Below are positions 1,982 to 42,987 of a DNA stretch of 43,164 nucleotides, piece by piece. The stretch's first letter is position 1; each line of letters begins with the position of its first letter. Both the position numbers and the translations under genes were made by a program. The notes below the pieces were generated by a model. It was not told the DNA's origin and made no database searches. It saw only the letters and a list, made by a program, of their open reading frames with translations. Source of the DNA: Bacteroidota bacterium (lineage in GTDB: Bacteria > Bacteroidota > Bacteroidia > Chitinophagales > Saprospiraceae); NCBI GenBank assembly GCA_020160935.1, contig JAIUPL010000013.1:111710-154873 (forward strand), written 5' to 3'.

Positions 1982-2088
1982 GAGTTATGAGTTAAGAGTT
2001 ATGAGTTATTCTCACATTGCTATTGGCCATACTAGTGGAGAAGCCGAAAGCAACGTGAGTATAACTCATAACTCTTAACTCATAACTC
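1982..2088. repeat. Word palindrome, gagttat family, copy 1
   Basis: Perfect 28-bp arms (1982-2009 and 2061-2088) are built from gagttat units; the irregular unit gttaaga is mirrored in both arms. The core continues pairing (CTCACATTGCT against AGCAACGTGAG, one mismatch). It starts 5 bp after the tgt stop codon on the minus strand and probably ends the deoC-tgt transcript (inference). The core resembles the copies at 8995 and 40941. Confidence 0.95.
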
Positions 2089-2093
2089 ATCCC

Positions 2094-3224
2094 TCAAAGT
2101 CTCGTTCTCACCTTCTGCACCATCTGCGTTTTCCACTCCAGGAAGTCGCCGCCCAGTATGCGGCGGCGCGCTTCTTTTACCAGCCACAGAAAAAAGCCGA
2201 GGTTTTGCAGGGTAGCGAGTTGCATACCGAGGATTTCATTGTTCATAAACAGGTGGCGCAGGTAAGCCCTGGTGTGAACAGTGCTCGTATGTACATGGCT
2301 TTGCGGGTCGATCGGGGTAAAATCATCGCGCCATTTCTGGTTTTTGATATTGATAATTCCTTCCGGGGTGTACAGCACACCGTGGCGGGCATTGCGGGTG
2401 GGCAACACACAGTCGAACATATCGATACCGAGGGCAATGCACTCCAGAATATTTTCGGGCGTACCCACCCCCATGAGGTAACGCGGCTTGTCTTTGGGCA
2501 AAATAGCCGTCACCAGTTCGGTCATCGCATACATATCTTCCGCAGGCTCGCCGACCGACAGGCCGCCGATAGCATTGCCTTCCCGGCCCAATGAAGCAAT
2601 GGTTTCGGCCGAAATACGGCGCAATTCGGGATAGGTGCTGCCCTGTACGATCGGAAACAAAGTTTGGCTATGTCCATAAAGCGGTTCCGTCTTATCAAAA
2701 CGTTCGATGCAGCGCGCCAGCCAGCGGTGGGTCATTTCCATCGATTTGCGCGCATAGCGTTCGTCGCAGGGATATGGTGTGCATTCATCGAAGGCCATGA
2801 TAATATCGGCGCCGATGACCCGCTGAATATCCATTACATTCTCCGGCGTGAAGGTATGCCGGGAACCATCGATATGGCTTTGAAACGTCACACCCTCTTC
2901 CTTGATTTTGCGGCGGTGGCCCAGCGAATACACCTGATACCCGCCGCTGTCGGTCAGCACCGGCCCTTGCCAGCCATTGAAACCGTGGATACCGCCAGCC
3001 TGCTGGAGTACATCGAGCCCAGGCCGAAGGTACAGGTGGTAGGTATTGCCGAGGCAGATTTGCGCCTGTACATCGTCGCGCAGTTCATGCTGGTGCACGG
3101 CTTTTACCGTGGCTGCCGTACCCACCGGCATAAAAATAGGCGTTTCAATAGCGCCGTGGGCGGTTTGAACAAGACCTGCACGGGCAGCACTGTGCGGGTC
3201 GGTATGTAGAAGAGAAAAATTCAT
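2094..3224 (-). CDS. tgt: tRNA-guanine transglycosylase (queuosine pathway)
   Basis: 376 aa; the ATG at 3224 gives the family-typical N-terminus MNFSLLHTDPHSAARAG. Tgt exchanges G34 of GUN-anticodon tRNAs for preQ1. Seen: LTDSGGYQVYS (Asp92, substrate binding), HIDGS, MAFDEC, GNAIGGLSVGE and MFDCVLPTRNARHG with the nucleophile Asp271. The C-terminal zinc motif CxCxxC...H of the E. coli and Zymomonas enzymes is absent: the segment after PIDP reads QSHVHTSTVHTRAYLRHL, and the later ligand His is Gln in ATLQNLGF. It is the last gene of the deoC-SPOR-rodA-tgt run, 19 bp after rodA. Confidence 0.95.
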   Translation of the reverse strand: MNFSLLHTDPHSAARAGLVQTAHGAIETPIFMPVGTAATVKAVHQHELRDDVQAQICLGNTYHLYLRPGLDVLQQAGGIHGFNGWQGPVLTDSGGYQVYSLGHRRKIKEEGVTFQSHIDGSRHTFTPENVMDIQRVIGADIIMAFDECTPYPCDERYARKSMEMTHRWLARCIERFDKTEPLYGHSQTLFPIVQGSTYPELRRISAETIASLGREGNAIGGLSVGEPAEDMYAMTELVTAILPKDKPRYLMGVGTPENILECIALGIDMFDCVLPTRNARHGVLYTPEGIINIKNQKWRDDFTPIDPQSHVHTSTVHTRAYLRHLFMNNEILGMQLATLQNLGFFLWLVKEARRRILGGDFLEWKTQMVQKVRTRL

Positions 3225-3243
3225 GATGTTCAATAGGCGCTTG

Positions 3244-4737: not shown

Positions 4738-4741
4738 GTTA

Positions 4742-7095: not shown

Positions 7096-7150
7096 AGAGG
7101 TGAGAGGTGAGAGAGTGAGAGTGTGAGAGGGGTGAGAATGTGAGAGGGGG
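7096..7150. repeat. One-sided gtgagag word run before obgE
   Basis: About seven imperfect copies of gtgagag on the plus strand, i.e. ctctcac in the obgE leader, end in ctctatc just before the ATG. The paiB-like gene at 16120 has nearly the same junction (ctctatcc then ATG). No complementary arm lies nearby. Confidence 0.85.
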
Positions 7151-8994: not shown

Positions 8995-9119
8995 AGAGTT
9001 ATGAGTTATAAAGTTATGAGTTATGAGTTATTCTCACATTGCTTTTGGCCACTCTATCAACAAAGCCAAATGTAAAGTGAGTATAACTCATAACTCATAA
9101 CTTTCTAACTCATAACTCT
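8995..9119. repeat. Word palindrome, gagttat family, copy 2
   Basis: Arms of 37 bp (8995-9031 and 9083-9119) differ at one base and consist of gagttat units. The core CTCACATTGCTTTTGGCC ... GTGAG matches copy 1. It fills the gap between the parC stop and the ATG of the EAD gene, both on the minus strand. Confidence 0.95.
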
Positions 9120-9129
9120 TCCAGTAAAG

Positions 9130-11832
9130 TCAATCAAACTCAATCGTATCTCCCGCCTTGTACGTGTCTTTTTTGCCGCCTTTTTCTGGAGTGGGTTCGG
9201 GCGTTTCTACTTCACCGAACAGGTTGACCTGTTGTGGAGCGGCTGCGGCCGGTTCTTCTTTTTCTTTGGCCGGTTTGCTCAGTTTGGAGGCGCCGGGGTC
9301 TACCTCTTTCACCGAGCCAAGGGCCTGGTCGCTGAGGCGGTTGCCGACGGCTTTCCAGCCTTTGGGTTCCATAAAATCGCCGAGCGACACCTCGCCCGTC
9401 ATGGCTTTGCCCTTGATTTTGATGCTGTAGGAGATGCGCGGATTTTCCTTAACCGAAGCGAACAGCAGTTTTGATTTGGGGTGATCGGTGAGGTAGCCGT
9501 AGCGTTCGCGGAGTTTGTTGGTTTCTATTTTGAAACGTTTCACCATCGTCCAGCCTTTGTGGCCGTCGAAATGAACGGCGTTGACGACTAATTCGGGTGT
9601 CAGTTTGCAGAGGTGCAGGATTTCCTTCATCTCGAAGCGCTGCTGTACGTCGGTGTCCGTCACCTCGTAGGAGCCGTCGGTGTATAGGATCAGGATGCTG
9701 TCGCCGGTGTCGAATTCGCCGAGGCAGTGGCCGCGTTCCTGGGTGTTGAGGCGGCCGGTAATATCGTCGAACCAGAGTTTTTGAGCGCCGATAGTGCTTT
9801 TGCCCACCTCTTTTTGTTTGATCTGTTTGACCGGGTATTTGGTCAGCACATTGCCCAGCGAATCGCGTCCTTTGATGGCCAATTCGGCAAAATCGTAGTC
9901 GAAAATCTTGATTTTGGCCGTGCTGGCAGGCGTCAGCGTGACCTGGATTACCTCGCTTTCCCCGTTCGGATTGACGGTGAAATACAGGATTTTGGAGCCT
10001 TTGGCCTCCGAACCGAGTTGGTATTCCTTGTCGCGGGTGATGGCGGTTACATTAAAACGTTTGACAAAGGAGCGCCCCGTTTTGGCATCCAGATAAGCCA
10101 TGTTATAGGTGGTGCGTTCGTCGTTTTTCTTCCAAACGGCCACGTGCGTAATGTCTTTGCCGACGAATATCTTTTCACCCACACGTACCACTTTCATCAC
10201 GCCGTCGCGGCGGAAAACAATCACGTCGTCGATATCGGAACAATCCTGCACAAACTCGTCTTTTTTGAGGCCCATGCCGATAAATCCTTCAGCGCGGTTG
10301 ACGTACAGTTTGGCGTTGTTGGCCACAACGGCAGTAGCCTGAATGGTGTCGAAAGCAGCGATTTCGGTGCGGCGTTCGCGGCCTTTTCCGTATTTGGACA
10401 GCAGGTTTTCGAAATAGGCGATGGCGTATTCCGTCAGGTGTTCGAGGTGGTGTTTGGTCTGGGTGAGTTCCTCGTTCAGTTTGTTGATTTCCTCATCAGC
10501 CTTGAAGGAATTGAATTTGGAAATGCGTTTAATGCGGATTTCCGTCAGGCGCAGGATATCGTCTTCCGTGATTTCGCGCAACAGCCGGAGGCGTTTGTCG
10601 GCGGCGGTGGGCTTCATATCGGGCGTCACCACGTATTTCCGCAGTCCGGTGTCGATGGTGCTGAGCACGGCTTCCCAGGTTTCGCATTCCTCGATGTCGC
10701 GGTAAATGCGTTGCTCGATGAATATTTTTTCCAGCGAGGCGAAGTGCAGTTTTTCTTCTAGTTCGTGCTGCAGAATGGCCAGTTCCATGCGCAGCAGTTC
10801 CTTCGTGTTTTCGGTGGAAATGCGCAGCAGTTCGTTGACGTCGGTAAACAGCGGTTTGTTTTCGACGATGACGCAGCAGTTGGGGCTGATGCTCACTTCG
10901 CAATCCGTAAAGGCATACAAGGCATCGATGGTGACATCCGGGCTGACGCCGGGTTGCAGTTCGATTTCGATATCGATGTTGGCGGCCACCTTGTCGATGA
11001 CTTTTTTGATTTTGATCTGGCCTTTTTCGTTGGCTTTGATGATCGATTCAATCAGGTCGCCGGTGGTAACGCCGAAAGGTATTTCAGTGATTTGCAGCGT
11101 TTTTTTGTCCATTTCCCGGATGCGGGCACGCACACGCACCTTGCCGCCCCGGCTGCCGCCGTTGTAATTGCTGGCATCGATGAGGCCGCCGGTAGGGAAA
11201 TCGGGCACCAGGTCCGATTTGCGGCCTTTGAGGCTGGCGATGCTGGCTTTGATGATTTCAACGAAGTTGTGGGGCAGGATTTTCGTGCTCAAACCCACCG
11301 CAATGCCTTCGGCGCCATGGGCCAGCACGAGCGGGAATTTCATGGGCAGGTTGACGGGTTCGCGTTTGCGGCCGTCATAACTCAGTTGCCAGGTGGTAGT
11401 ATCGGCATTGAACGCGATGTCGAGGGCAAATTTGGTGAGGCGCGCCTCGATATAACGCGGCGCCGCCGCCGAGTCGCCGGTGCGGTAGTCGCCCCAGTTG
11501 CCCTGACAATCGATCAGCAGTTCCTTCTGGCCCATATTCACCAGCGCATCGCCGATGGCAGCGTCGCCGTGCGGGTGGTACTGCATGGTTTGGCCTATGA
11601 GATTGGCCACCTTGTGGTAGCGTCCGTCGTGCTGCTCGTACATGGCGTGCAGGATGCGGCGCTGTACGGGTTTCAGGCCATCTTCCACGGCAGGTACGGC
11701 GCGTTCGAGGATCACATAACTCGCATAGTCCAGAAAATAGTTCTGGTACATGCCCGACAGAGTGATGATATGATCCTCGTGGTTGGCCGAAGTGGTAGGT
11801 GGTATGGAAGTATCTTTTTTCGCTTTTGCCAT
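9130..11832 (-). CDS. parC: DNA topoisomerase IV subunit A
   Basis: 900 aa. The breakage-reunion domain begins at about residue 20 (ITLSGMYQNYFLDYASYVI); GLKPVQRRILHAMYE (52-66), HPHGDAAI (86-93) and SAAAPRYIEARLT carry the catalytic Tyr127. A coiled-coil segment around EEINKLNEELTQTKHHLEHL forms the gate arm, and beta-pinwheel-like repeats follow from about 540. The C-terminus is a low-complexity Pro/Glu/Lys tail. The lack of a clear GyrA box and the overall pattern favour ParC over GyrA, but the two can be hard to separate. The parE partner is outside the window. A TACCTTTG -7 element lies about 90 bp upstream. Confidence 0.88.
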   Translation of the reverse strand: MAKAKKDTSIPPTTSANHEDHIITLSGMYQNYFLDYASYVILERAVPAVEDGLKPVQRRILHAMYEQHDGRYHKVANLIGQTMQYHPHGDAAIGDALVNMGQKELLIDCQGNWGDYRTGDSAAAPRYIEARLTKFALDIAFNADTTTWQLSYDGRKREPVNLPMKFPLVLAHGAEGIAVGLSTKILPHNFVEIIKASIASLKGRKSDLVPDFPTGGLIDASNYNGGSRGGKVRVRARIREMDKKTLQITEIPFGVTTGDLIESIIKANEKGQIKIKKVIDKVAANIDIEIELQPGVSPDVTIDALYAFTDCEVSISPNCCVIVENKPLFTDVNELLRISTENTKELLRMELAILQHELEEKLHFASLEKIFIEQRIYRDIEECETWEAVLSTIDTGLRKYVVTPDMKPTAADKRLRLLREITEDDILRLTEIRIKRISKFNSFKADEEINKLNEELTQTKHHLEHLTEYAIAYFENLLSKYGKGRERRTEIAAFDTIQATAVVANNAKLYVNRAEGFIGMGLKKDEFVQDCSDIDDVIVFRRDGVMKVVRVGEKIFVGKDITHVAVWKKNDERTTYNMAYLDAKTGRSFVKRFNVTAITRDKEYQLGSEAKGSKILYFTVNPNGESEVIQVTLTPASTAKIKIFDYDFAELAIKGRDSLGNVLTKYPVKQIKQKEVGKSTIGAQKLWFDDITGRLNTQERGHCLGEFDTGDSILILYTDGSYEVTDTDVQQRFEMKEILHLCKLTPELVVNAVHFDGHKGWTMVKRFKIETNKLRERYGYLTDHPKSKLLFASVKENPRISYSIKIKGKAMTGEVSLGDFMEPKGWKAVGNRLSDQALGSVKEVDPGASKLSKPAKEKEEPAAAAPQQVNLFGEVETPEPTPEKGGKKDTYKAGDTIEFD

Positions 11833-11835: not shown

Positions 11836-11865
11836 GGTTATTGGTTATCCGTTATCTGTTATCTG
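11836..11865. repeat. One-sided gataac word run before parC
   Basis: On the minus strand, about four 7-nt units of the type gataaca/gataacg/aataacc end 3 bp before the parC ATG. The same word precedes the RND gene (16740-16766) and forms the outer arms at 42631 and 42961. The terminal units could also fold back on CAGATAA at 11874. Confidence 0.8.
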
Positions 11866-11918
11866 TTTTCAGGCAGATAAGGGCGCTACTGTTGTTATGC
11901 TGACGGGGTAAGATGGGG

Positions 11919-13389: not shown

Positions 13390-14715
13390 ATGCAAATACG
13401 TACAATTCTACTAACACTCCTGACAGCAGGAGGCATGACCCTTGTCGGCCATGCCCAGCAGAGCATGACCCTGAACGACTGCCTCCAGTACGCCCTGGCC
13501 AATGCGCCCGAAGTACAGGTGGCACAACTTCAGGTGTCGGATGCCGACTGGCAGATCAGGGAAAACAAGGCGACCGGCCTGCCTCAGGTATCCGGAAGCA
13601 TTGGCTACCAGTATTTCATCCAGCGCCCCGGCATTCCGGCCAGCGCACTCGGTTTCCCGGGAGCCGGCGACGAAAAAATTGCCTTCAGTGCTTTGCACAA
13701 CCTCTCGCCCACCCTGTCGTACAACCAGTTGTTTTTCAGCAACAGTTACCGCGTCGCCAGAAAAGCCGCATGGTACTATCGCGCCTATGTCGACCAGCAA
13801 CTTACTGCCGCCAAACGCACGGTGTACAACCGCGTGATTGACGCCTACTTGCCAGCCGTGCTCATCAGCGACAACCTGGCAACGCTGGATAAAAACATCG
13901 GGAACCTGGAAAAACTGCTGTCCGACACCCGCGCTATCAACCAGGCCGGTTTTGCCGAACAACTCGACGTCGATCGACTTGATCTGTCGCTATCTACCCT
14001 GCGCAGCGAACGCAGCAACCTGGTGCGCCAGCGCGAAATCGTGGTAGATGCCCTCAAACTCTCCATGGGTATGCAAGTCAGCAATCAGATCACACTTTCC
14101 GACAACATCCAGCAACTGATGGATACCTACACAGACGCCGACCTGAGCACAGAACTCAACCTGCAAAACCGCGCCGACTATGTGGCCCTGCTGAAAAGCC
14201 GCGACCTGAGCGCCCTGCAGATCGAACTGAACAGCAAACCATGGATGCCTTCCTTTGCCGGCTTTTTGCAATACTCCCCTGCTTTTCAGGGCGGTTTTGG
14301 CAACGACAAAAAATGGTTTTTTATCCCCTCTGCCGTGGCCGGTGTGTCGATCAATTTTACACTCTGGGACAGCGGCGTGAGCAAAGCCCGCCGCCAGCGC
14401 GCCCTGGTGGGTGTACAAACGCTGGATGTACAAAAACAAATGCTTGAAAACGCCATCGCGCTCGAAGTAGAATCGGCCCGCAAGCAATACGTCAATGCAC
14501 AGGAACGCGTCGGCAGCCAGCAAAAAAACCTCGACCTGGCCCAGCGTATCTATGATACTACCCAGACGAAATACAAGGCCGGCGTCGGCAGCAGTTTCGA
14601 AGTGACACAGGCCGAACAGGGACTTTATACTGCCCAGCAGAATGTTATGCAGGCCCGTTACGACCTGCTGACGGCCCGCATCGCTATTAAAAAAGCACTC
14701 GGTCTGGAGAAATAG
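13390..14715 (+). CDS. TolC-family outer-membrane efflux protein
   Basis: 441 aa, signal peptide (MQIRTILLTLLTAGGMTLVGHAQ). Two outer-membrane-efflux-protein repeats are visible: MTLNDCLQYALANAPEVQVA near the mature N-terminus and a second coiled-coil repeat ending in QAEQGLYTAQQNVMQARYDLLTARIAIKKALG. Such proteins form the trimeric channel through the outer membrane in tripartite efflux. The downstream gap of 104 bp begins with a one-sided gtgagag word run. Confidence 0.92.
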   Translation: MQIRTILLTLLTAGGMTLVGHAQQSMTLNDCLQYALANAPEVQVAQLQVSDADWQIRENKATGLPQVSGSIGYQYFIQRPGIPASALGFPGAGDEKIAFSALHNLSPTLSYNQLFFSNSYRVARKAAWYYRAYVDQQLTAAKRTVYNRVIDAYLPAVLISDNLATLDKNIGNLEKLLSDTRAINQAGFAEQLDVDRLDLSLSTLRSERSNLVRQREIVVDALKLSMGMQVSNQITLSDNIQQLMDTYTDADLSTELNLQNRADYVALLKSRDLSALQIELNSKPWMPSFAGFLQYSPAFQGGFGNDKKWFFIPSAVAGVSINFTLWDSGVSKARRQRALVGVQTLDVQKQMLENAIALEVESARKQYVNAQERVGSQQKNLDLAQRIYDTTQTKYKAGVGSSFEVTQAEQGLYTAQQNVMQARYDLLTARIAIKKALGLEK

Positions 14716-14745
14716 AGGTGAGAGGTGAGAGGCGAGAAGTGAGAA
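14716..14745. repeat. One-sided gtgagag word run after the tolC-like gene
   Basis: About four gtgagag-like units (aggtgagaggtgagagg...) start directly after the stop codon. No complementary arm precedes hlyD, so this is a downstream half only. Confidence 0.8.
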
Positions 14746-14819: not shown

Positions 14820-15950
14820 ATGAACCATATTAAATTCCTCACTCTTGCAAGCATCGGTTTGAGCATCGTGCTGTTGTCTGCCTGCGGCGGTGGCGGCGTC
14901 AAAGATCCCGCTGCCCAACTCGCAAAACTCAAAGAAGACAAAGCAGCCATCGATGCACAAATTACTGCGCTGGAAAAAGAAATCGGTACTGCCAGTGGCC
15001 AGCCGGCGCGGGTAAAAACCATCGGTCTTACCGAAGTAAAAACAGGTGTTTATCGCCATTTTATCGACCTGCAAGGCAAGGTGGATGCGGAAGAAAGCAT
15101 TCCTGCTACAGCCAAAATGCCCGGTACGCTGAAACGCGTGTATGTGAAAAACGGCGACGACGTGCGCCGTGGACAATTGCTGGCCGAAATTGAAGACAAC
15201 ATCCTCCAGAAAAGCCTCGCCGAACTAGAAGGCCAACTGGCTACCGCTACCGACATCTACAACCGCCAGAAAGGCCTGTGGGATCAGAAAATCGGTACCG
15301 AAGTAGCCTTCATTCAGGCCAAAAACGGCAAGGAAAGCATCGAGCGCAGCATCGCTACCCTCAAGGAAAACATCGGGCAAACCAAAATTTATGCACCTAC
15401 CAACGGCACGGTCGACCTCGTCGTGCTCAAACAAGGCCAGGTGATCTCTCCGGGTATGCCGCTTTGCAACATCCTCAATCTCAGCAACCTGAAAATCAAG
15501 GGCGAGGTGACGGAAGCATATGCTGCCAAAGTGCGCAAAGGCGACCAGGTGCAGGTGTTTTTCCCTGATCTGAAAAAAGAAATCACCACACGCGTGACGT
15601 ATGTCAGCAAAACCATCAACCCCATGACCCGTACGTTCGTGGTGGAATGCGCCTTGCCCAACGCGGCCGACTACCGCGCCAATCAGGTGGCGGTGATGAA
15701 AATTGTGGACTACCAGAACCCGAATGCCGTTACCATTCCGGTCAACGTGATTCAAACGGCTCAGGATGGCGAGTTTGTGATGATTGCTGAAAAAACCGGC
15801 GACAAAACTGCTGTTGCCAAAAAAGCCAGCATCAAACAAGGCAGCAACTACAACGGTCAGGTGGAAGTCCTCAGCGGTCTGAAAAAAGGCGACTGGGTGA
15901 TTACCACGGGTTTTCAGGATGTGAATAATGGAGAAACGGTCGCTTTCTAG
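14820..15950 (+). CDS. RND efflux periplasmic adaptor (HlyD/AcrA type), lipoprotein
   Basis: 376 aa. Lipobox LSAC with Cys22, so probably anchored to the inner membrane. A coiled-coil stretch at 33-60 (AQLAKLKEDKAAIDAQITALEKEIG), then the lipoyl half-motifs (GTLKRVYVKNGDDVRRGQLLAEIEDN and IYAPTNGTVDLVVLKQGQVI), the barrel domain (KIKGEVTEAYAAKVRKGDQV) and the membrane-proximal domain ending in GLKKGDWVITTGFQDVNNGE. Adaptors couple the pump to the channel. The word palindrome at 15951 starts at its stop codon. Confidence 0.93.
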   Translation: MNHIKFLTLASIGLSIVLLSACGGGGVKDPAAQLAKLKEDKAAIDAQITALEKEIGTASGQPARVKTIGLTEVKTGVYRHFIDLQGKVDAEESIPATAKMPGTLKRVYVKNGDDVRRGQLLAEIEDNILQKSLAELEGQLATATDIYNRQKGLWDQKIGTEVAFIQAKNGKESIERSIATLKENIGQTKIYAPTNGTVDLVVLKQGQVISPGMPLCNILNLSNLKIKGEVTEAYAAKVRKGDQVQVFFPDLKKEITTRVTYVSKTINPMTRTFVVECALPNAADYRANQVAVMKIVDYQNPNAVTIPVNVIQTAQDGEFVMIAEKTGDKTAVAKKASIKQGSNYNGQVEVLSGLKKGDWVITTGFQDVNNGETVAF

Positions 15951-16119
15951 AGTGTGAGAGAGTGAGAACGTGAGAGCGTGAGAGTTCGTAGATTACAACC
16001 GCTATGTACTAAAAAATTCTAGAGTGAAACGGTGTACTCTACGAACTCTCACCCTCTCACATCTCTCACGCTCTCACGCTCTCACACTCTCACATCTCTC
16101 ACCCTCTCACGCTCTATCC
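15951..16119. repeat. Word palindrome, gtgagag type, inside the efflux operon
   Basis: Left words 15951-15992 (gtgagag units), right words 16038-16113 (ctctcac units, about twice as many). The innermost 15 bp, GTGAGAGTTCGTAGA and its complement (15978-15992 / 16038-16052), are exact. The right arm runs up to the paiB-like ATG. The frame open through it (THR-LEU-SER-HIS type repeats) is spurious. Confidence 0.95.
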
Positions 16120-16755
16120 ATGTACCTTCCTCACCACTTCACACAAACCGACACCGCTACCCTGGTGGCTTTCATGCGCCAATACGCATTTGCCACCATC
16201 GTATCGGAAGTAGACGGCAAGCCCTGCGCTTCGCACCTGCCTTTTGTGGTAGAGTGGAAGGAAGATGGCACGATACAGTTGCTGGCACACTTTGCCAAAG
16301 CCAATCCGCAATGGCAAACACTGGAGGGGCAAACGGCACTCGTTATTTTCAACGAACCGCATGCCTACATCTCGCCATCACTGTACGACAAGGAACTGAG
16401 TGTGCCGACCTGGAACTACATAGCCGTGCATGCCTACGGGCACGCTACCTTGATTACTGAAGAAGCAGCCGTACGTGAATTGTTGGAAAAACAAATTCAA
16501 TCCTTTGAGAAAGAATATTTTACACAATGGATGAATTTGCCGGAACCATTCAAGGCTGCTATGCAAAAAGGCTTAACCGCCTTCCGGATCGATGTGACAG
16601 AACTGCAAGGCAAGGAAAAACTGAGCCAGAACAAATCGGCACAAGAGCGCGAACGAATTGGAAAACACCTGATTGAAAATACAGATAGTACAGCCAGAGA
16701 AACTGGCCTGCAAATGCTCAACAAACTGCTTATCACACCGATAACAGATAACTAA
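16120..16755 (+). CDS. PaiB-like FMN-binding protein
   Basis: 211 aa from the ATG at 16120; the frame upstream only reads through the repeat. PaiB/FMN-binding split-barrel pattern: MYLPHHFTQTDTATLVAFM, FATIVSEVDGKPCASHLPF, VPTWNYIAVHAYGHA and GKEKLSQNKSAQERERIG. Named for negative regulation of Bacillus protease synthesis and sporulation; the molecular role is unproven. Its insertion between adaptor and pump is unusual. Its last codons (ITDN) and stop lie within a gataac word run that continues to the RND start 17 bp on. Confidence 0.88.
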   Translation: MYLPHHFTQTDTATLVAFMRQYAFATIVSEVDGKPCASHLPFVVEWKEDGTIQLLAHFAKANPQWQTLEGQTALVIFNEPHAYISPSLYDKELSVPTWNYIAVHAYGHATLITEEAAVRELLEKQIQSFEKEYFTQWMNLPEPFKAAMQKGLTAFRIDVTELQGKEKLSQNKSAQERERIGKHLIENTDSTARETGLQMLNKLLITPITDN

Positions 16756-16766
16756 TAACTGATAAC
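16740..16766. repeat. gataac word run across the paiB stop and RND leader
   Basis: Four 7-nt units (gataaca, gataact, aataact, gataac) cover the last codons and stop of the paiB-like gene and end 6 bp before the RND ATG. Same word as before parC and at 42631/42961. Confidence 0.85.
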
Positions 16767-16772
16767 AAATTC

Positions 16773-20130: not shown

Positions 20131-20330
20131 TGATGAGGGTTGATGAGGGTTGATGAGGTTGATAGGGTTGATGAGGGTTGATAAAGGTTGATGAGGGTTG
20201 ATATTTAGCCACTCGATAATTGAAAATCGTTCCCTTATCTTGAGGCGATTTTTATCAACCTCATCAACTTTTATCAACCCTCATCAACTTTTATCAACCC
20301 TCATCAACCTTTATCAACCCTCATCAACCC
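20131..20330. repeat. Word palindrome, 10-nt tgatgagggt type
   Basis: Left words 20131-20203, right words 20253-20330. Units are tgatgagggt or 9-nt variants on the left and their complements on the right, with irregular spacing. It begins one base after the RND stop and ends 3 bp before the ATG of the FAD protein, so the whole gap is repeat. Confidence 0.95.
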
Positions 20331-20333
20331 TAT

Positions 20334-21981: not shown

Positions 21982-23472
21982 GTGTATTTGTTAGGTCTCG
22001 ACATCGGTTCTTCCTCTATCAAAGCAGCACTCGTCGATGCTGCCAGCGGCCAAACGGCCGGCATTGTACAATACCCCGAGCAGGAGATGGAAATTCTTGC
22101 GCCTCAATCCGACTGGGCTGAGCAACACCCTGCTGTGTGGTGGGATGCTGTGTGTCAGGCTACGCGCAAGTTGATGACTTCTACCGGCGCCGATCCATCA
22201 CAGGTAGCAGCTATTGGTATTTCCTATCAGATGCACGGGCTGGTCACTGTCGACAAGCAAGGCGAGGTATTGCGGCCTTCCATTATCTGGTGCGACAGCC
22301 GCGCAGTAGCCATCGGCGAACGGGCATTTCAGGCCATCGGGTCAGGCTATTGTCTGGAGCATTACCTCAATACGCCCGGCAATTTTACGGCTTCCAAATT
22401 GCGCTGGGTGCGTGAAAACGAGCCTGCCATTTTTGAAAAAATTCACAAAATCATGTTGCCGGGCGATTACATCGCCTATCGAATGACCGGCGAAATCTGC
22501 ACCACCATCACCGGACTTTCGGAAGGCATTTTCTGGGATTTTGCCGAACATACACCGGCGCGAAAACTCATGGAGTATTACGGTATTCCGGAATCGATGC
22601 TGCCAGACATTCGCGGCGTTTTTGAGCCGCAGGGCCAACTGCATGCCGCCGCTGCCGCTGCGCTCGGGCTGCCCGCCGGTATCCCGGTCGGTTATCGCGC
22701 CGGCGACCAGCCCAACAATGCCCTGTCACTCAATGTGTTGCGTGCTGGCGAGGTGGCCGCTACAGGTGGCACTTCGGGCGTGGTGTATGCCGTAGCGCCT
22801 GGCCCTGTGCACGACCAGCAACAACGCGTCAATGGTTTTGCGCATGTAAATTATACGCGCGAGCAGCCACTCACCGGCGTTTTACTGTGTATCAATGGCG
22901 CGGGCAGCCAGTACCGTTTTATCCGGCAGATTGTAGGCGACAATGCCGTTACTTACCCCGACATGGAAGCGGCCGCTGCCACCGTGCCGGTCGGCTCGGA
23001 TGGCCTGACCATTTTGCCTTTCGGTAATGGCGCCGAGCGTATGCTGGGCAACAGTACACCCGGCTCGCGCATCCTGGGTTTGAATTTCAACAGACACGAA
23101 AAACGCCACCTCTACCGGGCAGCCCTCGAAGGCATCGCATTTGCATTTGTGTATGGCATGGAAGCCCTGCGCGATATGCAAATTCCGGTCAGTATGTTGC
23201 GCGTAGGGAACGACAACCTGTTTCAATCGGCTATTTTTTCCAATACCATTGCCACTTTGGTAGGCACCGCCATCGAGATGCATGCCACTACCGGCGCTGT
23301 CGGCGCCGCCCGGGCAGCCGGTGTATCGGCAGGCATTTACAAGAACATTGAAGAAGCCATGCAGGGCAGCCGCATTGTGCATCGATACGAGCCGCAAAGT
23401 CAAACGGAAGCATACCAGGTCGCTTATGAGCGCTGGAAAAAAGAACTTTCTTTAGTGAGTGGTGAGTGGTGA
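21982..23472 (+). CDS. xylB: Xylulokinase (FGGY family)
   Basis: 496 aa. Start codon GTG at 21982 gives MYLLGLDIGSSSIKAALVD, the ATP phosphate-1 motif. Other motifs: SYQMHGLV (81-88, substrate), GDQPNNAL (241-248) with the catalytic Asp242, and TGGTSGVVYA (phosphate-2). It phosphorylates D-xylulose after XylA. The C-terminal six residues LVSGEW and the stop are encoded by gtgagtg repeat units, so the repeat has extended into the gene. xylA follows across a word palindrome. Confidence 0.93.
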   Translation: MYLLGLDIGSSSIKAALVDAASGQTAGIVQYPEQEMEILAPQSDWAEQHPAVWWDAVCQATRKLMTSTGADPSQVAAIGISYQMHGLVTVDKQGEVLRPSIIWCDSRAVAIGERAFQAIGSGYCLEHYLNTPGNFTASKLRWVRENEPAIFEKIHKIMLPGDYIAYRMTGEICTTITGLSEGIFWDFAEHTPARKLMEYYGIPESMLPDIRGVFEPQGQLHAAAAAALGLPAGIPVGYRAGDQPNNALSLNVLRAGEVAATGGTSGVVYAVAPGPVHDQQQRVNGFAHVNYTREQPLTGVLLCINGAGSQYRFIRQIVGDNAVTYPDMEAAAATVPVGSDGLTILPFGNGAERMLGNSTPGSRILGLNFNRHEKRHLYRAALEGIAFAFVYGMEALRDMQIPVSMLRVGNDNLFQSAIFSNTIATLVGTAIEMHATTGAVGAARAAGVSAGIYKNIEEAMQGSRIVHRYEPQSQTEAYQVAYERWKKELSLVSGEW

Positions 23473-23649
23473 GTAGTGAGTAGTGAGTGGTGAGTAGTGA
23501 GTGGTGAGTAGTGAATGGTGAGTAGTGTGATTAGTGCATTACTGCGATTTTCCTCACCACTCACTACTCACCACTCACTACTCACCACTCACTACTCACC
23601 ACTCACTACTCACTACTCACTACTCACCACTCACCACTCACCACTCACT
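23454..23649. repeat. Word palindrome, gtgagta/gtgagtg type, between xylB and xylA
   Basis: Left arm 23454-23527 (about ten 7-nt units of gtgagta or gtgagtg), right arm 23553-23649 (about 14 units of the complement). The 25-bp centre contains gtgattagtgcattactgc. It begins inside the last codons of xylB and ends 1 bp before the xylA ATG. A 39-residue frame upstream of xylA through the right arm is spurious. Confidence 0.95.
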
Positions 23650-23650
23650 T

Positions 23651-24979
23651 ATGAAAATCACGACAGGCGAACGCGTCTATTTCAAAAACATCTCCTCCAT
23701 ACCATACGAAGGACCGAAGTCCGACAACCCATTGGCATTCCGCTGGTACGATGCCAACCGGAAAGTGGGTGGGAAAACCATGGCTGAGCATTTCAAATTT
23801 GCAGTAGCCTACTGGCATACGCTGTGCGGTACAGGCGGCGACCCCTTCGGGCCGGGCACCAAGGCGTTCCCCTGGCTGGAAGCCAAAAATCCGCTGCAAC
23901 AGGCCTATGACAAAATGGATGCGGCCTTTGAATTCATCACCAAAATTGGCATACCGTACTACTGTTTCCACGATTTCGATCTGGTGCAGGAAGGCCCGAC
24001 CCTGCGGGAAAGCGAACGCAGACTGCAAAAAATTACCGACTACGCTGCGAAAAAACAGGCAGAATCGGGCGTACAACTCCTCTGGGGCACCGCCAACCTG
24101 TTTTCCAACCCGCGCTACATGAACGGCGCCGCTACCAACCCCGATTTTGAAGTGGTGGCCTACGCCGGCGCACAGGTGAAAATGGCCCTCGATGCTACCA
24201 TCAAACTCGGTGGACAAAACTATGTGTTCTGGGGCGGCCGCGAAGGCTACATGAGCCTGCTGAATACCAACATGAAAAAGGAACTCGACCACCTGGCGCG
24301 TTTCCTGCACATGGCCAAAGACTACGCCCGCAAATCGGGTTTCAAGGGTACGTTCTTCATCGAACCCAAACCCATGGAACCCAGCAAGCACCAGTACGAT
24401 TTTGATTCGGCCACCTGCATCGGATTCCTGCGCGAATACGGCCTCGACAAGGATTTTAAACTCAATATCGAAGTCAACCACGCTACCCTGGCACTTCACA
24501 CTTTCCAACACGAACTGCAAGTGGCCGCCAATGCGGGTATGCTCGGCTCCATCGACGCCAACCGCGGCGACTACCAGAACGGCTGGGATACCGACCAGTT
24601 TCCCAACAACGTGATGGAAATTACGGAAGCCATGCTCATCATCCTGCAATCGGGCGGACTGCAAGGCGGTGGCGTGAACTTCGACGCCAAATCGCGCCGC
24701 AACTCCACCGATCTGGAAGATATTTTTTACGCCCACATCGGTGGTATGGATGTATTTGCGCGCGCGCTGCTCGCCGCACACGATATTCTGGAAAATTCAG
24801 CTTATCGGAAAATGCTGGCCGAACGCTACGAATCCTTCGATTCGGAAGAAGGCAAAGCCTTTGAAGCGGGCAAACTCAAACTGAAAGACCTGCAAAAAAT
24901 TGCACAGCGCAACGGGGAGCCCACACAGCGCAGCGGGAAGCAGGAGTTGTTTGAGAATTTGCTGAATCGGCATGTATAA
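23651..24979 (+). CDS. xylA: Xylose isomerase
   Basis: 442 aa from the ATG at 23651 ([11 protein letters not shown]). Class II xylose isomerase: catalytic His107 and Asp110 in [35 protein letters not shown] (metal and Lys), [14 protein letters not shown] and GSIDANRGD (metal ligands). It converts D-xylose to D-xylulose and acts with XylB. No xylose transporter or regulator is next to the pair. The perfect palindrome at 24980 begins at its stop codon. Confidence 0.97.
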
Positions 24980-25113
24980 AGTCCTGAGTCGTAAGTCCTG
25001 AGTCCTGAGTCTGTAGAGTACACCTGATTACTCCTGGCACATCATACAAAGGTTGCCAGGAGTAATCAGGTGTACTCTACAGACTCAGGACTCAGGACTT
25101 ACGACTCAGGACT
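24980..25113. repeat. Perfect 60-bp word palindrome, stop to stop (xylA / Gfo-Idh)
   Basis: Arms 24980-25039 and 25054-25113 are exact complements over 60 bp with a 14-nt loop. The outer part has 7-nt units (agtcctg, with variants agtcgta and agtctgt mirrored in both arms); the inner part is unique sequence. It fills the whole convergent gap, starting right after the xylA TAA and ending in the TGA of the Gfo/Idh gene. Most likely a bidirectional terminator (inference). Confidence 0.98.
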
Positions 25114-26204
25114 CATATTTTCGTTTTCCCATTTTCCTTCACCGACCGGTGAATCGCCTCCACCACCTTGATATCCAGCAGGCCCTCCATGCCCGATACC
25201 AGGCCCGGCTTTTTCTGCATGATAGCCAGGGCGTCATCGTCCATTTGGCGGGCCTGTTCGTTGTCGATGGCAGCATCCAGCGCTATTCCGTCGCTGGTGA
25301 TGCCTTTTACGCCGGTGTATGACTGAAATGGTTCGAGTTGGTACCAGCCTTTGGCGCAATCGACGCGCAGGCTGTTCATACCTTTTCCGAAACTGGTTTC
25401 ACACACGGCCTGAATACCGCCGGGAAATTCCAGTTCGAAATGCATGGTTTCGTCCACTTCCGAATATATCTCGGGGCGGGTGGTCGATTGCCGCGCCAGC
25501 ACCGATAGCGGTTCGAGCCCGGTGGCATAACGCGCCGCATTGATGCAATACACCCCCATATCGTAGGTAGCGCCACCGCCCATGGCCTTTTTCTGTTTCC
25601 AGTGGTTGGTTCGGTTGTCGAAATAACCAGCCGAAGCCGTCAGTTTCTGAATGTTTCCGTAGGGTTTGTTTTTGGCAAAACCCATAATGGTTTGCGTATT
25701 GGGTTCGTGGTGCATGCGATAGCCGATGCTGAGTTGCACCTTGTTTTTTTCACAGGCGGCGATCATTTGTTCGCATTCGGCTACAGTGACAGCCATCGGT
25801 TTTTCGCACCACACGTGTTTGCCTGCATTGGCAGCCCGAATCACATATTCGGCATGCATAGAGGGCGGCAATACGATGTAAATCACATCGATAGCGGGGT
25901 TGTCGGCAATGCTGTCGAAGTTCTGGTAATTGTAAACGTTTTTTTCAGGAATGCCATAACGCCGTTGCCAGTTCACCGCCTTTTCCGGCGAACCGGTAAC
26001 GATGCCTGCCAGATAGCAGTGTTGCGTTTTTTGAAGCGCCGGCGCCAGCAAATCGGTGCTGTAATAACCCAGTCCCACCAGCGCGATACCCAGTCCGCGT
26101 GGCTGCGGTATCCGAACACGGGAGCAATAACCATATTGGTTGAATAGGGAATAGCCGAGTGTGCCGAGCGCAGTGTCGTGCAGGAATTTTCGTCTGTTCA
26201 TCAT
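25113..26204 (-). CDS. Gfo/Idh/MocA family oxidoreductase, exported
   Basis: 363 aa from the ATG at 26204 (26201 also possible). The N-terminus MMNRRKFLHDTALGTLGYSLF resembles a twin-arginine export signal. NAD(P)-binding fold: LVGLGYYSTDLLAPAL, SPEKAVNWQRRYGIPEKNVYNY, DVIYIVLPPSMHAEY and GKHVWCEKPMAV with the conserved EKP (134-136). The dimer-barrel part carries GGGATYDMGVYCINA. Glucose-fructose oxidoreductase-like proteins use a tightly held NADP(H); the substrate here is unknown. Only 43 bp separate it from the upstream protease gene. Confidence 0.87.
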   Translation of the reverse strand: MMNRRKFLHDTALGTLGYSLFNQYGYCSRVRIPQPRGLGIALVGLGYYSTDLLAPALQKTQHCYLAGIVTGSPEKAVNWQRRYGIPEKNVYNYQNFDSIADNPAIDVIYIVLPPSMHAEYVIRAANAGKHVWCEKPMAVTVAECEQMIAACEKNKVQLSIGYRMHHEPNTQTIMGFAKNKPYGNIQKLTASAGYFDNRTNHWKQKKAMGGGATYDMGVYCINAARYATGLEPLSVLARQSTTRPEIYSEVDETMHFELEFPGGIQAVCETSFGKGMNSLRVDCAKGWYQLEPFQSYTGVKGITSDGIALDAAIDNEQARQMDDDALAIMQKKPGLVSGMEGLLDIKVVEAIHRSVKENGKTKI

Positions 26205-27381: not shown

Positions 27382-27395
27382 AGGCGAAACAGTAA

Positions 27396-27512
27396 GAGAC
27401 AAGGGGCAAGGGGCAAGGGGCAAAATGGTACCAGTTTTCGAGTGCAAAAATTGCCCCTTGCCTCTTGCCCTTTGCCTCTTGCCCCTTGCCTCTTGCCCCT
27501 TGCCTCTTGCTC
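27396..27512. repeat. Word palindrome, aaggggc type
   Basis: Left arm 27396-27425 with three to four aaggggc units, right arm 27451-27512 with about nine ttgcccc/ttgcctc units alternating in a 14-nt super-period. It lies between the XdhC-like stop and the protease ATG (both minus strand). Arm lengths differ more than twofold. Confidence 0.93.
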
Positions 27513-27568
27513 CTCAAACGTCGCTCCCTCTTGTCATTCTTGTGTACGCGCTCGATTTTGAGATTTTC

Positions 27569-32869: not shown

Positions 32870-33022
32870 AATTTTTCGCACCTGAATGACGCCAAACGCC
32901 CCTTGTCCTCCTGACGGGAACCGTCCACGCTACAGCGCGTAACAACGTATTTTCCCTCGTAGAGTGGACGGTTCCCGTCAGGAGGACAAGGGGCGTTTGG
33001 CGTCATTCAGGTGCGAAAAATT
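32870..33022. repeat. Perfect 59-bp inverted repeat
   Basis: Arms 32870-32928 and 32964-33022 are exact complements over 59 bp with a 35-nt loop. Sequence is not a tandem word: AATTTTTCGCACCTGAATGA is the outer end. It lies between porW and the small lipoprotein gene and would form a very stable RNA stem. Confidence 0.97.
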
Positions 33023-36014: not shown

Positions 36015-36106
36015 TGTATGAGGACGTCCGCGCTTCTATCGGGCGGACGGGATGGCGGCGAGCCCCTCAAAGGAGGCGTCACCGTTTTCTTGTATTGGGA
36101 TATGCT

Positions 36107-36329
36107 GTTCGGCTTCGCCTCACGGGGACTTGGGATTTTGCGGATCGAGCGGATAAAGCGGATTTTTGTGGCCTGACGGCCACTTTTGATTATTTTTTCT
36201 ACTGCTCAAATACCATCTTCTTTATCACCGCCGAAGGCGGAAAATTAAAAAAGTGGCCGTCAGGCCACAAAAATCCGCTTTATCCGCTTGATCCGCAAAA
36301 GCCCAAGTACCCGTGAGGCGAAGCCGAAC
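36107..36329. repeat. 81-bp inverted repeat between porE-like and amylase genes
   Basis: Arms 36107-36187 and 36249-36329 match over 81 bp with three mismatches; loop of 61 nt. Shares gttcggcttcgcctcac, gcggat units and tttttgtggcc with the bracketing pair at 32761/33857. It ends 3 bp from the amylase stop. Confidence 0.96.
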
Positions 36330-36332
36330 ATC

Positions 36333-40314: not shown

Positions 40315-40337
40315 CGAGTTGGCATTTTTTCGGTTTC

Positions 40338-40500
40338 AGAGCGTGTTCGGGATTTTTTCGCCAGGTCTGAAAAGTGGCTTTTTTGCACGTTTTCCACCTT
40401 TTTTCATTTACAAAGTCACCACTATGCGCATGAAAAAACGCATAAAACGTGCGAAAAATCCATCTTTTCAGCCGCCGGCAAAAAATTCCGAACACGCTCT
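40338..40500. repeat. Imperfect long inverted repeat, about 56 bp
   Basis: AGAGCGTGTTCGGGATTTTT ... TTTTTTGCACGTTTT (40338-40393) is the imperfect complement of 40444-40500, with about eight mismatches and one indel. The loop holds ATGCG/CGCAT. It covers half of the 313-bp gap after the epimerase. No word repeat; probably an older palindrome. Confidence 0.85.
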
Positions 40501-40627: not shown

Positions 40628-40936
40628 ATGGATAACCACATCGTCCAGTTTATGGTGGATTTCACCATGCCGCAAGATTTGCCGGAAGAGTTTGTAAGCA
40701 AGATACCGCAGCAAAGAGCCGCCGTCAACCGAATGCTCAGCGAAGGAAAGATTCTCAACTATGCGCTGTCTTTGGAAAATTCCAAGTTGTGGGTTGTTTT
40801 TTCTGTACAGTCCGAAACGGAATTGATCGATTTGATTGAAAGCCTTCCGCTTACCCGTTTTATGAAATACCGCGTCAGCGAACTGACGTTTTACAATGCC
40901 TCCAACCCGTTTGTGCAGGCGTTTTCGATGAACTAG
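40628..40936 (+). CDS. Small ferredoxin-fold-like protein (muconolactone-isomerase/YCII-like)
   Basis: 102 aa from the ATG at 40628 (MDNHIVQFMVDFTMPQDL). The pattern FMVDFTMP - long helix with EEFVSKIPQQRAAVNRML - SEGKILNYALSL - KLWVVFSVQSETELIDLIESLP - YRVSELTFYN suggests a dimeric alpha/beta-barrel fold. The catalytic residues cannot be assigned. Followed at once by the gagttat word palindrome. Confidence 0.6.
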   Translation: MDNHIVQFMVDFTMPQDLPEEFVSKIPQQRAAVNRMLSEGKILNYALSLENSKLWVVFSVQSETELIDLIESLPLTRFMKYRVSELTFYNASNPFVQAFSMN

Positions 40937-40940
40937 AATA

Positions 40941-41061
40941 GAGTTATGAGTTATGAGTTATGAGTTTTACGCACGTTGCTTTTGGCCCCTCTATTAAGAA
41001 AAGTCAAGAGTACAGCATCATAACTCATAACTCGTAACTCATAACTCATAACTCATAACTC
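40941..41061. repeat. Word palindrome, gagttat family, copy 3
   Basis: Left arm 40941-40966 (three and a half gagttat units), right arm 41020-41061 (six ataactc units, one gtaactc). The core (CACGTTGCTTTTGGCCCCTCTATTAAG) resembles copies 1 and 2. It spans the convergent gap to the lipid kinase and abuts its stop codon. Confidence 0.95.
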
Positions 41062-41977
41062 ACAGTACCACCTTCAGCGCTTTTTCCAGCAGCGTAAATA
41101 CGGCCGGCGTTTCGCCCAGAAATTCACCGTCGGCCTCCAGCAGTGTTGGGCTATCGCCCGTTTGTTCCACCCGCACACTGCGTACTTGTGCACTCCCGAT
41201 TTTAGGATGTTTCAACAAACTGCCGTCGTAGAAACGGGGTGTTTGCAGCAGCACCTCCGCTTTCGACAAGGCGCCGGCATAGGTGAGGGCAAACAGGCCA
41301 TCGTCGGGGATGGCATGCGGCACCAATTGCATGCCGCCGCCCGAATAGCGGCACAATCCGATATTGATGGTGTAAAATTTATCTTCCACAGCCTGCCCGT
41401 CGAACAGGATTCTGGCGCCGGTGAGTTGGTATTCCAGCAGGTATTGCGCTACCATGAGCAGGTAATGCAGCCGGTTTTGCGCAGGTTTTTGGGTCAGTTT
41501 TTTCCCGATAAAGCCATCGTAGGCCATACCTGCCACATTTACAAAATACCGTTTCCGGGTTTCTCCTTCCGCAAAATATTCCACCAGCCCGGCATCCTGC
41601 ATCACGGTTTGCAGCGACAGAAGGCGTTCGAGCCGTTGGCGCGGCACAGCCGATATGCCATATTGGCGGGCCCAGTCGTTGCCGGTACCCACGGGCAGCA
41701 AAGCGTAGTAAACTTCCGAAGAGGGCACAAAATTTTGGCCTAAAATGCCGTTTGTTATCTCATGGTTGGTGCCGTCGCCACCGATGCCGAGGATGTAGCG
41801 GCCGCCTTTCAGAATGGCGTCTTCAGCGAGCCGGGATGCGTGGCCGCGGCGTTCGGTAAATTGAACGTTATAGGAAAATCCCATTTCCTGCAACAGTTGT
41901 TCGATCATCGGCCAGCGCTTTTGCACCGTGCCGCTACCCGCAGCGGGGTTGACAATAATATGCCAGAAGGGAGTCAC
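41060..41977 (-). CDS. Diacylglycerol/lipid kinase family protein (DagK/YegS-like)
   Basis: 305 aa. DAGKc catalytic domain: IIVNPAAGSGTVQKRWP (7-23), TERRGHASRLAEDA (41-54) and ILGIGGDGTNHEITNGIL with GGDGT (66-70). The C-terminal half has the YegS-type beta domain (LVEYF, FVNVAGMAYDGF, LLEADGEFLGETPAVFTLL). These kinases phosphorylate diacylglycerol or related lipids; some members have other lipid substrates. It diverges from the HsdR_N-like gene. Confidence 0.9.
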   Translation of the reverse strand: MTPFWHIIVNPAAGSGTVQKRWPMIEQLLQEMGFSYNVQFTERRGHASRLAEDAILKGGRYILGIGGDGTNHEITNGILGQNFVPSSEVYYALLPVGTGNDWARQYGISAVPRQRLERLLSLQTVMQDAGLVEYFAEGETRKRYFVNVAGMAYDGFIGKKLTQKPAQNRLHYLLMVAQYLLEYQLTGARILFDGQAVEDKFYTINIGLCRYSGGGMQLVPHAIPDDGLFALTYAGALSKAEVLLQTPRFYDGSLLKHPKIGSAQVRSVRVEQTGDSPTLLEADGEFLGETPAVFTLLEKALKVVL

Positions 41978-42016
41978 AGATCTCGCAGAGTTATACGGAT
42001 TTACACGGATTGGATG

Positions 42017-42177
42017 GGAACAAGGATCACGCGGAAACGGACGAATTTACACGGATTGGATTGCAAGAAAGGGAGAATGATGCTTTTTTCGATTGCTTTT
42101 TGAAAAAAGCATCATTCTCCCTTTCTTGCAATCCAATCCGCGAAGATCCGCCATACATCCGCGTGATCCGTGTTCCC
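42017..42177. repeat. Nested palindrome in the kinase / nuclease divergent gap
   Basis: An inner perfect 38-bp stem (42052-42089 / 42103-42140, loop 13 nt) reads CGGATTGGATTGCAAGAAAG outward to GATGCTTTTTT. An outer 20-bp stem (42017-42036 / 42158-42177) has one mismatch, around GGATCACGCGGA. Directly repeated ttacacggattgg lies on the left. It sits between divergent starts and would form a cruciform. Confidence 0.95.
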
Positions 42178-42178
42178 T

Positions 42179-42631
42179 ATGTTGCTCGAACTCGATCTGC
42201 TGCCTTTTCAAAGCAAACTTCGCCTCACCCGTTCGGAAGGCAAGCATCTTGTTTTTGACCCGATTCGCCGCAAAAACATTGTGCTGACGCCCGAAGAACT
42301 GCTTCGGCAAATGATTGTCCTGTACTTGCTGGAAACAAAAAAATACCCGGCTCATCGCATCGGCATCGAAACGGGCATTGAATGGAACGGCCTGAAAAAA
42401 CGCTGCGATATCGTGGTATACGACGCACAGGTACGTCCCTGGTTTTTGCTGGAATGCAAATCGCCCAAAGTACCGCTCACACAGGCGGTTTTTGAACAGG
42501 CTGCCCGATACAACCTCCAATTGAAGGCGCCTTTTCTGGCTATTACCAATGGGCTGGCCACTTACTGCGCCGGACTCGATTTTGAGGAGGAACGGTTTGA
42601 GTATTTGGAGGATTTCCCCGAGTATGTTTAG
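42179..42631 (+). CDS. Stand-alone HsdR_N / PD-(D/E)XK nuclease-like protein
   Basis: 150 aa from the ATG at 42179; a GTG at 42170 lies in the repeat. Type I restriction R-subunit N-terminal pattern (HSDR_N_2): VFDPIRRKNIVLTPEELLRQ, then RCDIVVYD (Asp77), FLLECKSP (Glu92, Lys94), and YNLQLKAPFLAITNG. Catalytic residues are intact, but there is no helicase domain or restriction-modification neighbour. Such single-domain proteins are widespread in Bacteroidota with no assigned role. Confidence 0.82.
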   Translation: MLLELDLLPFQSKLRLTRSEGKHLVFDPIRRKNIVLTPEELLRQMIVLYLLETKKYPAHRIGIETGIEWNGLKKRCDIVVYDAQVRPWFLLECKSPKVPLTQAVFEQAARYNLQLKAPFLAITNGLATYCAGLDFEEERFEYLEDFPEYV

Positions 42632-42987
42632 TTATCGGTTATTAGTTATTGGTTATCAGGGTGGGTAAGGAGAGATGGGTTTTTCAGGCTGGCGGCTCGG
42701 GAAAGGTTGAGAGGTTGAGAGGTTGAGGGGTTGAGGGGTTGAGGGGTTGAGGGGTTGAGAAGTTGAGGGGTTGAGAAGTTGAGGGGTTGAGGGGTTGAGG
42801 GGTTGAGAAGTTGAGGGGTTGAGATTCAATCTCTCTTGTGATGAAAAATCTCTCTTGATATTGAGTGGCTGAATCTCAACCCCTCAACCCCTCAACCCCT
42901 CAACTTCTCAACCTTCCCCGAGCCGCCAGCCTGAAAAACCCATCACCCCTTACCCACCCTGATAACCAATAACTAATAACCGATAAC
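42631..42987. repeat. Two-layer word palindrome, gttatcg + ggggttga
   Basis: Outer arms 42631-42719 and 42899-42987 match over about 87 bp with about four mismatches: 7-nt units gttatcg/gttatta/gttattg, then unique sequence (gggtttttcaggctggcgg). An inner layer has 8-nt ggggttga units, about 14 on the left (to 42822) and about 5 on the right (from 42876). Central loop about 50 nt. It fills the convergent gap. Confidence 0.95.

Follow-up and report, generated by a model that had tools for sequence, protein, structure and literature searches.

Dispersed families of word-armed intergenic palindromes in a Saprospiraceae genome and the occupants of the same gaps in related genomes

The analyzed window is a stretch of 43,164 nucleotides at the end of a contig (C31:111710-154873) in the draft genome of an uncultured Bacteroidota bacterium of the family Saprospiraceae (5.84 Mb, 51 contigs). 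The nearest protein neighbors of the window among named genomes belong to metagenome-assembled genomes (MAGs) of Saprospiraceae and other Bacteroidota. Gaps between the genes of this window contain palindromes whose arms are built from tandem copies of a short word. These palindromes fall into families, each combining a tandem word of 7-10 nt with a central part. A family recurs at many loci with a single polarity, lies outside called genes, and often follows a stop codon directly. Some families sit inside one another as concentric nests. Orthologous gaps of related genomes usually retain a palindrome while its family can change, sometimes with traces of the other occupant at its edge, and many of the sequence changes occur in both arms. 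Probably, these elements are small mobile palindromes of several dispersed families, which nest and whose arms are kept symmetric by template switching.

The palindromes were analyzed in samples of this genome totaling 843 kb and in a larger sample of 1.64 Mb (28% of the genome). Genes were called with a home-made codon scorer. Arms were detected ungapped from 10-nt seeds, so decayed copies were missed. In total, 164 inverted repeats with arms of at least 20 nt were found in the 843 kb, including 139 with arms of at least 30 nt; the corresponding numbers for the 1.64 Mb are 301 and 257. An order-2 Markov control, made for 6 of 21 stretches, contained one inverted repeat with an arm of at least 20 nt in 120 kb, versus 83 in the real 443 kb. 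The intergenic position noticed in the window also holds for the larger sample, in which called genes cover less than half of each of the inverted repeats (301/301).

Some 14 word families recur in the genome, herein referred to by letters: GAGTTAT (A), GTTATC/GTTATTGG (B), AGTCCTG (C), CGCAGA (D), GGTTGATGA (E), GTGAGTAG (F), GTGAGAG (G), CGGATT (H), CTTCGTG (I), GTTGAGG (K), GTGTTTT (L), GGGGCAA (M), GATGAAT (N), and GGATTTAAAGGATTAGAAGG (X); family J is wordless. Only 18 of the 148 palindromes with arms of at least 25 nt match no family pattern. The first-pass annotation, made from the window alone, had described the words as locus-specific and the sequences as unrelated. This description does not hold beyond the window: the word of family A (GAGTTATGAGTTAT) has 383 matches genome-wide, and 121 of the 139 long arms (at least 30 nt, 843 kb) have a relative at another locus. 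Alignments of arms between loci show a single polarity (2123 plus versus 2 minus), and the orientation of the words towards the center is constant.

Some central parts are shared between families. Five of these (C, D, G, I, and J) have the sequence GTAGAGT in common, with 42 palindromes containing it; this sequence may be comparable to the tag GTAG or CGTC that stands beside a short hairpin in repetitive extragenic palindromes (REPs). A degenerate core, TAG[AC]GT[AGT][GC][AC]C, has 70 of its 88 occurrences in or within 20 nt of palindromes, which make up 3.3% of the 843 kb. This fuller form of the core was found in 4 of 21 family A palindromes, and families B, E, F, and K lack the core. In a related genome, G006, two different words stand on one core, TTTCAGGCTGA. 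Word and core thus behave as modules, since cores are shared between families and two words share one core in G006. The 5' arms contain more G than C in 107 of 139 cases in the studied genome (the reverse in 25), in 28 of 34 in G006, in 37 of 42 in G016, and in 8 of 14 in G007 and G021 together.

Two further candidates for a common feature were rejected. A universal core GGCYACTC was found in 55 of 148 centers; for comparison, it occurs in 407 of 2000 stretches taken at random from the genome and in 357 of 2960 shuffled sequences, which makes the enrichment modest and the core not universal. Stop codons in all three frames, considered as the common purpose of the words, were found in 59 of 139 5' arms of the studied genome against a shuffled mean of 28, but are not general: 9 of 34 in G006 (mean 5.7) and 9 of 42 in G016 (mean 6.2), where the 3' arms have more (17/42).

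The same gaps were compared with G040, the genome of locus L041, which is 86.7% identical to the studied genome over 98.6 kb aligned. Among 56 gaps of up to 700 nt between syntenic called genes, a palindrome was found in both genomes in 24, in neither in 31, in G040 only in 1, and in the studied genome only in none (p = 6e-15). In the sole G040-only gap, the studied genome has a decayed half (L200 5290). Other settings gave 25 gaps occupied in both genomes, 2 in G040 only, and 31 in neither; 51 gaps taken from the G040 side gave 22 occupied in both, 2 in G040 only, 1 in the studied genome only, and 26 in neither. Without gene calls, a counterpart was found for 26 of 29 palindromes of the studied genome and 26 of 28 of G040 with aligned flanks; 50 further entries of the studied genome had no aligned flanks, many of them counted repeatedly since the window was paired with four loci. 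The cases private to the studied genome in this count are the family J palindrome at 32870-33022 (wordless, with a core resembling one at another gap of L042, and with only a short hairpin retained in the G040 gap), a 163-nt element at 40338 that resembles a miniature inverted-repeat transposable element (MITE), and a 21-nt low-complexity repeat (L132 16603). Sharing of these positions, herein referred to as slots, is not simply a matter of room, because the gaps lacking a palindrome amount to 5913 nt, as much as the shared slots (5700 nt). Among palindrome-free gaps of at least 100 nt, 8 of 19 are divergent, and these may be closed to insertion. In the farther relative G006, presence and absence deviate more frequently, and the counts are 6 gaps occupied in both, 19 in neither, 4 in the studied genome only, and 6 in G006 only. 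G040 contigs C137, C84, and C110 are short opposite the window part 26-43 kb, and some of them break near window palindromes, as if assembly had been hindered there.

The word differs in 9 of the 24 slots shared with G040. Occupants were separated at a local alignment score of 18, by which 12 slots scored as different; three of these (L203 15808, L132 9169, and window 41908) have the same word by eye. The first-pass view of one design with changing words holds even at orthologous gaps, with the correction that the sequences recur as families, several of them with shared cores. The family E palindrome at 20131-20333, made of TGATGAGGGT words, fills its gap, and the same gap in three relatives contains a family A palindrome, a CGGTAGCACGG palindrome, and a family B palindrome. 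The family F palindrome at 23447-23656 (GTGAGTAGTGAGTGG words) corresponds in G040 to a GGATT-family palindrome with an F remnant on its right. The family G palindrome at 15949-16115, with GTGAGAG words and a GTAGA core, is located within an efflux gene cluster, and its G040 counterpart is a GGATT-family palindrome nested in G words.

Where the words differ, the other word is clearly kept at the border in 4 of the 9 slots, as judged by eye. A right B arm remains beside a C palindrome at L138 14424, an E remnant adjoins A at window 20129, an F remnant adjoins X at window 23472, and X is nested in G at window 15950. Remnants are suggestive at two further such slots, L138 17196 and L203 17751. 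An automated remnant score, applied to 23 slots of which 11 scored as different, was positive in 8 of the 11, two of which have the same word by eye; the permuted mean was 2.25, and the observed value was reached by 1 of 500 permutations. Nesting is also found within single palindromes. The one at 42627-42991 has outer GTTATC words, a TTTCAGGC linker, and inner GGTTGAGG words, mirrored in both arms, and this composite recurs at two other sampled loci. A relative's gap (L042 4776-5230) contains about five concentric modules by eye. Insertion of a whole element is seen in G016, where a B palindrome of about 140 nt stands between a TGA and an ATG that are spaced by 3 nt in the studied genome and in G040; the palindrome is absent at this site in G006 and G007 as well. 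Inversion of the loop between orthologs was also examined, and the loops were too short or too diverged for comparison.

Within the studied genome, the two arms of a copy disagree at 340 of 7407 positions, in 106 cases by a transversion and in 234 by a transition. Between orthologous copies of one family, 141 of 568 aligned positions differ; 80 of these differences are mirrored in both arms and 61 are one-sided. Among the inner modules of paralogs, the mirrored share is 67 to 81% of differences, with 761 transversions and 541 transitions. The mirrored changes comprise 45 transversions and 35 transitions, which differs from the mismatches within copies of the studied genome (p = 5e-5). In tandem gaps, the transcribed strand carries similar numbers of G-U and A-C mismatches (73 versus 83). 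Copying of one arm from the other at the DNA level fits these data better than stepwise compensation in RNA, because the mirrored changes include many transversions and no G-U bias is seen. Homogenization of inverted-repeat arms by template switching is described in two reports (PMC8604942; PMC8794818), the first of which mentions that earlier bacterial data favored transversions and finds more transitions in yeast. The strand switching invoked in the first-pass annotation is thus supported as a way of keeping the arms alike and not supported as a source of the words.

Under the reading as nesting mobile palindromes, elements would be copied or moved as whole units by some enzyme, and newcomers would land in or beside older palindromes, whose outer arms would then decay. 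Template switching of DNA polymerase between the arms would maintain their symmetry, and slippage would alter the number of words. A narrower form of this reading, which we put forward tentatively, is that modular mobile palindromes moved by something other than the transposases of REPs prefer other palindromes as landing sites. Here a copy would enter at or near the older center, the junction would become mirrored by template switching, and the outer arms would decay; if so, one gene gap would pass through a series of unrelated words, mostly retaining a palindrome.

Several points weigh against mobile, nesting palindromes. Conservation of slots could equally reflect selection for a hairpin. 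A strict two-word test was passed by only 5 of 102 palindromes with arms of at least 40 nt in the studied genome, and by none of the 24 from G006 or the 31 from G016. The clean insertion in G016, the only one of a word palindrome, shows no target-site duplication by eye, and no gene mobilizing the palindromes was identified, including at the loci with transposase-like genes discussed below. As to the arms, mirroring applies to only 80 of the 141 differences between orthologs and can be mimicked by alignments in which words have slipped, and the matched comparison within the same ortholog pairs (35 transitions and 45 transversions mirrored versus 36 and 25 one-sided) gives p = 0.09. The counts from pairs of paralogs are moreover not independent of one another.

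The main rival explanation for the persistence of slots is a role at gene ends. The palindromes would be selected as RNA hairpins, either two-way terminators or stabilizers of mRNA 3' ends, so that self-complementarity alone matters, the word is free to change, and the slot is kept. We regard this as rather unlikely as the whole explanation. It agrees with the conservation of slots in G040 and with the distribution of palindromes over gap classes, which favors convergent gaps: 68 were found in 105 convergent gaps, 88 in 365 tandem gaps, and 27 in 101 divergent gaps. One gap may contain more than one palindrome in these counts, and the gap totals omit stretches without an inverted repeat (e.g., L123 and L130), which slightly raises the rates per gap. 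Counted with the same omission, 60 of the sample's 93 convergent gaps contain at least one palindrome, as do 41 of the 43 that are 100-249 nt long. In tandem gaps, the median distance to the stop codon is 9 nt and that to the start codon 56 nt. However, a run of five T within 12 nt behind the 3' arm was found in just 4 of 146 readings; the palindromes are not ordinary intrinsic terminators, because this T run is rare. The excess of G-U over A-C mismatches that pairing in RNA would favor is lacking, the many mirrored transversions are contrary to stepwise compensation, and palindromes also occur in divergent gaps and within the efflux gene cluster.

Movement by REP-associated tyrosine transposases (RAYTs), as for the paired REP elements known as REPINs (REP doublets forming hairpins), is improbable. 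This explanation is suggested by the presence of RAYT-like genes in the studied genome, by GTAG within some cores, and by the location behind coding regions, between convergent or tandem genes, which fits that of REPs (PMC3733652). The Pfam profile PF01797 finds two RAYT-like genes in the whole genome. A further RAYT-like gene, in L204, matches the model REP_Tyr_transpos with E 1e-12, below that model's cut-off, and a profile grown from it, run on 28% of the genome, finds three genes. Either search under-counts RAYTs, because each profile misses the genes of the other: the L204-derived profile misses those in L009 and L010, and PF01797 misses all three of the L204 type. Word palindromes are absent from the flanks examined (about 0.5 to 2.3 kb per side) of all five RAYT-like loci looked at (L009, L010, L135, L204, and L240), and the inverted repeats near them are of other kinds; the search for divergent RAYTs covered 28% of the genome. 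Over 42 genomes of the genus, the number of PF01797 copies does not correlate with word A (rho 0.14, p 0.36), a weak test, since PF01797 misses divergent RAYTs. Nothing seen points to a reverse transcriptase either, although no search aimed at one was made.

RAYT-like genes seem to have palindromes of their own, because an inverted repeat of the GATTTGACAACTTTTC type, found near the RAYT-like gene in L240 (11608-12155), recurs alone in L136 (1712-1795). Perfect palindromes with arms of 46-50 nt are present in L204 (935-1032 and 1664-1759) and in L198 of G016 (10990-11091); their outer 16 nt, TAGTGGTGGCATGGGA, are constant and the inside differs. The two in L204 flank the divergent RAYT-like gene.

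The first-pass annotation had proposed a local generator that turns any short junction word into tandem and inverted copies; this is now very improbable, and for most copies it is contradicted. In its favor, all families follow one design, inverted copies can arise by template switching (PMC8794818), and 18 of the 139 long arms have no relative in the 843 kb sample. However, the families are dispersed over the genome, common to several species, of one polarity (2123:2), and provided with shared cores, and a whole family member sits cleanly in a gap that measures 3 nt in two relatives. An artifact of metagenome assembly is hardly credible: many of the relatives are MAGs, the case rests on assembled sequence, G040 contigs break near some window palindromes, and the window terminates at a contig end, but several genomes that were assembled separately contain the same families, and the elements, of about 100-350 nt, are bordered on either side by unique syntenic genes.

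Bacterial intergenic palindromes are usually described family by family. Elhai reportedly described, in 2008, short tandem words in cyanobacteria (short tandemly repeated repetitive sequences, STRRs) and very small mobile dispersed repeats. Among the closest known cases are the GGGAATC heptamers of Xanthomonas, which form intergenic arrays, with 70 and 75 cases as inverted pairs and a mostly constant gene context (PMC4692102). The Xanthomonas type is further marked by a G-rich word able to form quadruplexes. Tandem heptamers as inverted pairs between genes are found here as well, but that report deals with one word type, whereas here there are some 14 words, shared cores, concentric nests, and changes of word in the same gap. 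REPs, according to PMC3733652, are extragenic palindromes of 20-40 bp with a tag at one end, located mainly behind genes and between convergent or tandem genes, and some REP dimers are inserted inside other palindromes. Like REPs, REPINs, and bacterial interspersed mosaic elements (BIMEs), the palindromes of this study are dispersed, extragenic, and share sequence within the genome (121/139 long arms; 301/301 positions). Unlike in REPs, their tandem-word arms reach 145 nt, and a RAYT flanked by the same palindromes was found at 0 of the 5 loci examined. TAACTGA repeats of Beggiatoaceae, cyanobacteria, and five Bacteroidetes are also mostly intergenic arrays of heptamer words, patchy across taxa, with indels in 7-nt steps and long arrays in some Bacteroidetes; they are not described as palindromes in the accessible part of PMC4679880. 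Template-switch homogenization of arms (PMC8604942; PMC8794818) resembles the changes mirrored in both arms, but as a mutation process it does not explain dispersal. Among titles and abstract beginnings searched in the open-licence literature, no report of nested multi-word palindromes from Saprospiraceae was found, nor was the occurrence in one genome of many words with shared cores, concentric nesting, and exchange of words in a conserved slot. Many families of one design that take each other's place in a given gap from species to species form a natural series in which the place of a hairpin can be set against its sequence, and homogenization of arms by template switching becomes measurable on hundreds of copies within one genome.

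The feature is patchy within one genus, because arm densities differ between genomes: arms of at least 30 nt occur at 15.8 and 17.2 per 100 kb in two samples of the studied genome, 29.6 in G006, 29.5 in G016, 6.4 in G021, and 1.9 in G007. The word GAGTTATGAGTTAT of family A was found in 13 of 42 genomes of the genus, the studied one included, with at least 10 matches in 10 of them. A scan of the phylum with a pattern similar to the strict family A one (gap 12-42 nt) matched 3 of 395 genomes, including the studied one, and is an undercount because this gap is too short for most copies of the studied genome. No viral contig matched one strict family A pattern. Word palindromes with GAGTTAT were seen in two other families of the phylum, at one site each (G381:C18:81833-81900 and G430:C10:15483-15539). 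In G021, palindromes with the 4-nt word GTGA and with CACTAAG-type words were seen (L172 6361-6643 and 10500-10637).

The window contains nine word-armed palindromes, whose arms reach 117 nt at 95% identity and in some cases are 100% identical, in agreement with the first-pass count of at least eight. Words of 7-10 nt were confirmed, although the GTGAGAG site at 15949 has a period of 8 and not 7. Besides the palindromes mentioned above, family A is represented at 1982-2088 (GAGTTAT words followed by a TTCTCACATTGCT core), at 8995-9119, directly behind the stop codon of the minus-strand gene for topoisomerase subunit A and with a family A palindrome in the same gap of G040, and at 40941-41062 (word-armed). 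The family C palindrome at 24980-25115 has AGTCCTG words, a TGTAGAGTACACC core, and 60-nt arms at 100%, and the family M palindrome at 27394-27514 has GGGGCAA words. Three palindromes have few or no words: the family J one, a family H palindrome at 36106-36330 (GCGGAT words and a GTGGCCTGACGGCCAC module), and an H-like one at 42042-42150 (outer part CGGATTGGATT). Four sites are half-arms without a partner. The left arm alone is present at 7096-7149 (GTGAGAG words) and at 11837-11870 (GTTATC words), and the right arm alone at 16740-16770 (GATAACA words). The fourth, at 14714-14744, has AGAGGTG words of the GTGAGAG type, and G040 has the same left words there together with a right half-arm of AGTCCTG words.

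The MITE-like element of about 163 nt occupies 40338-40500 of the window, is missing from G040, and has 21-nt ends, AGAGCGTGTTCGGGATTTTTT, with seven matches in the 843 kb. Other copies were found at L122 3603, L131 15144, L209 2691 and 14732, and L215 17303, and a weaker one at L119 16007.

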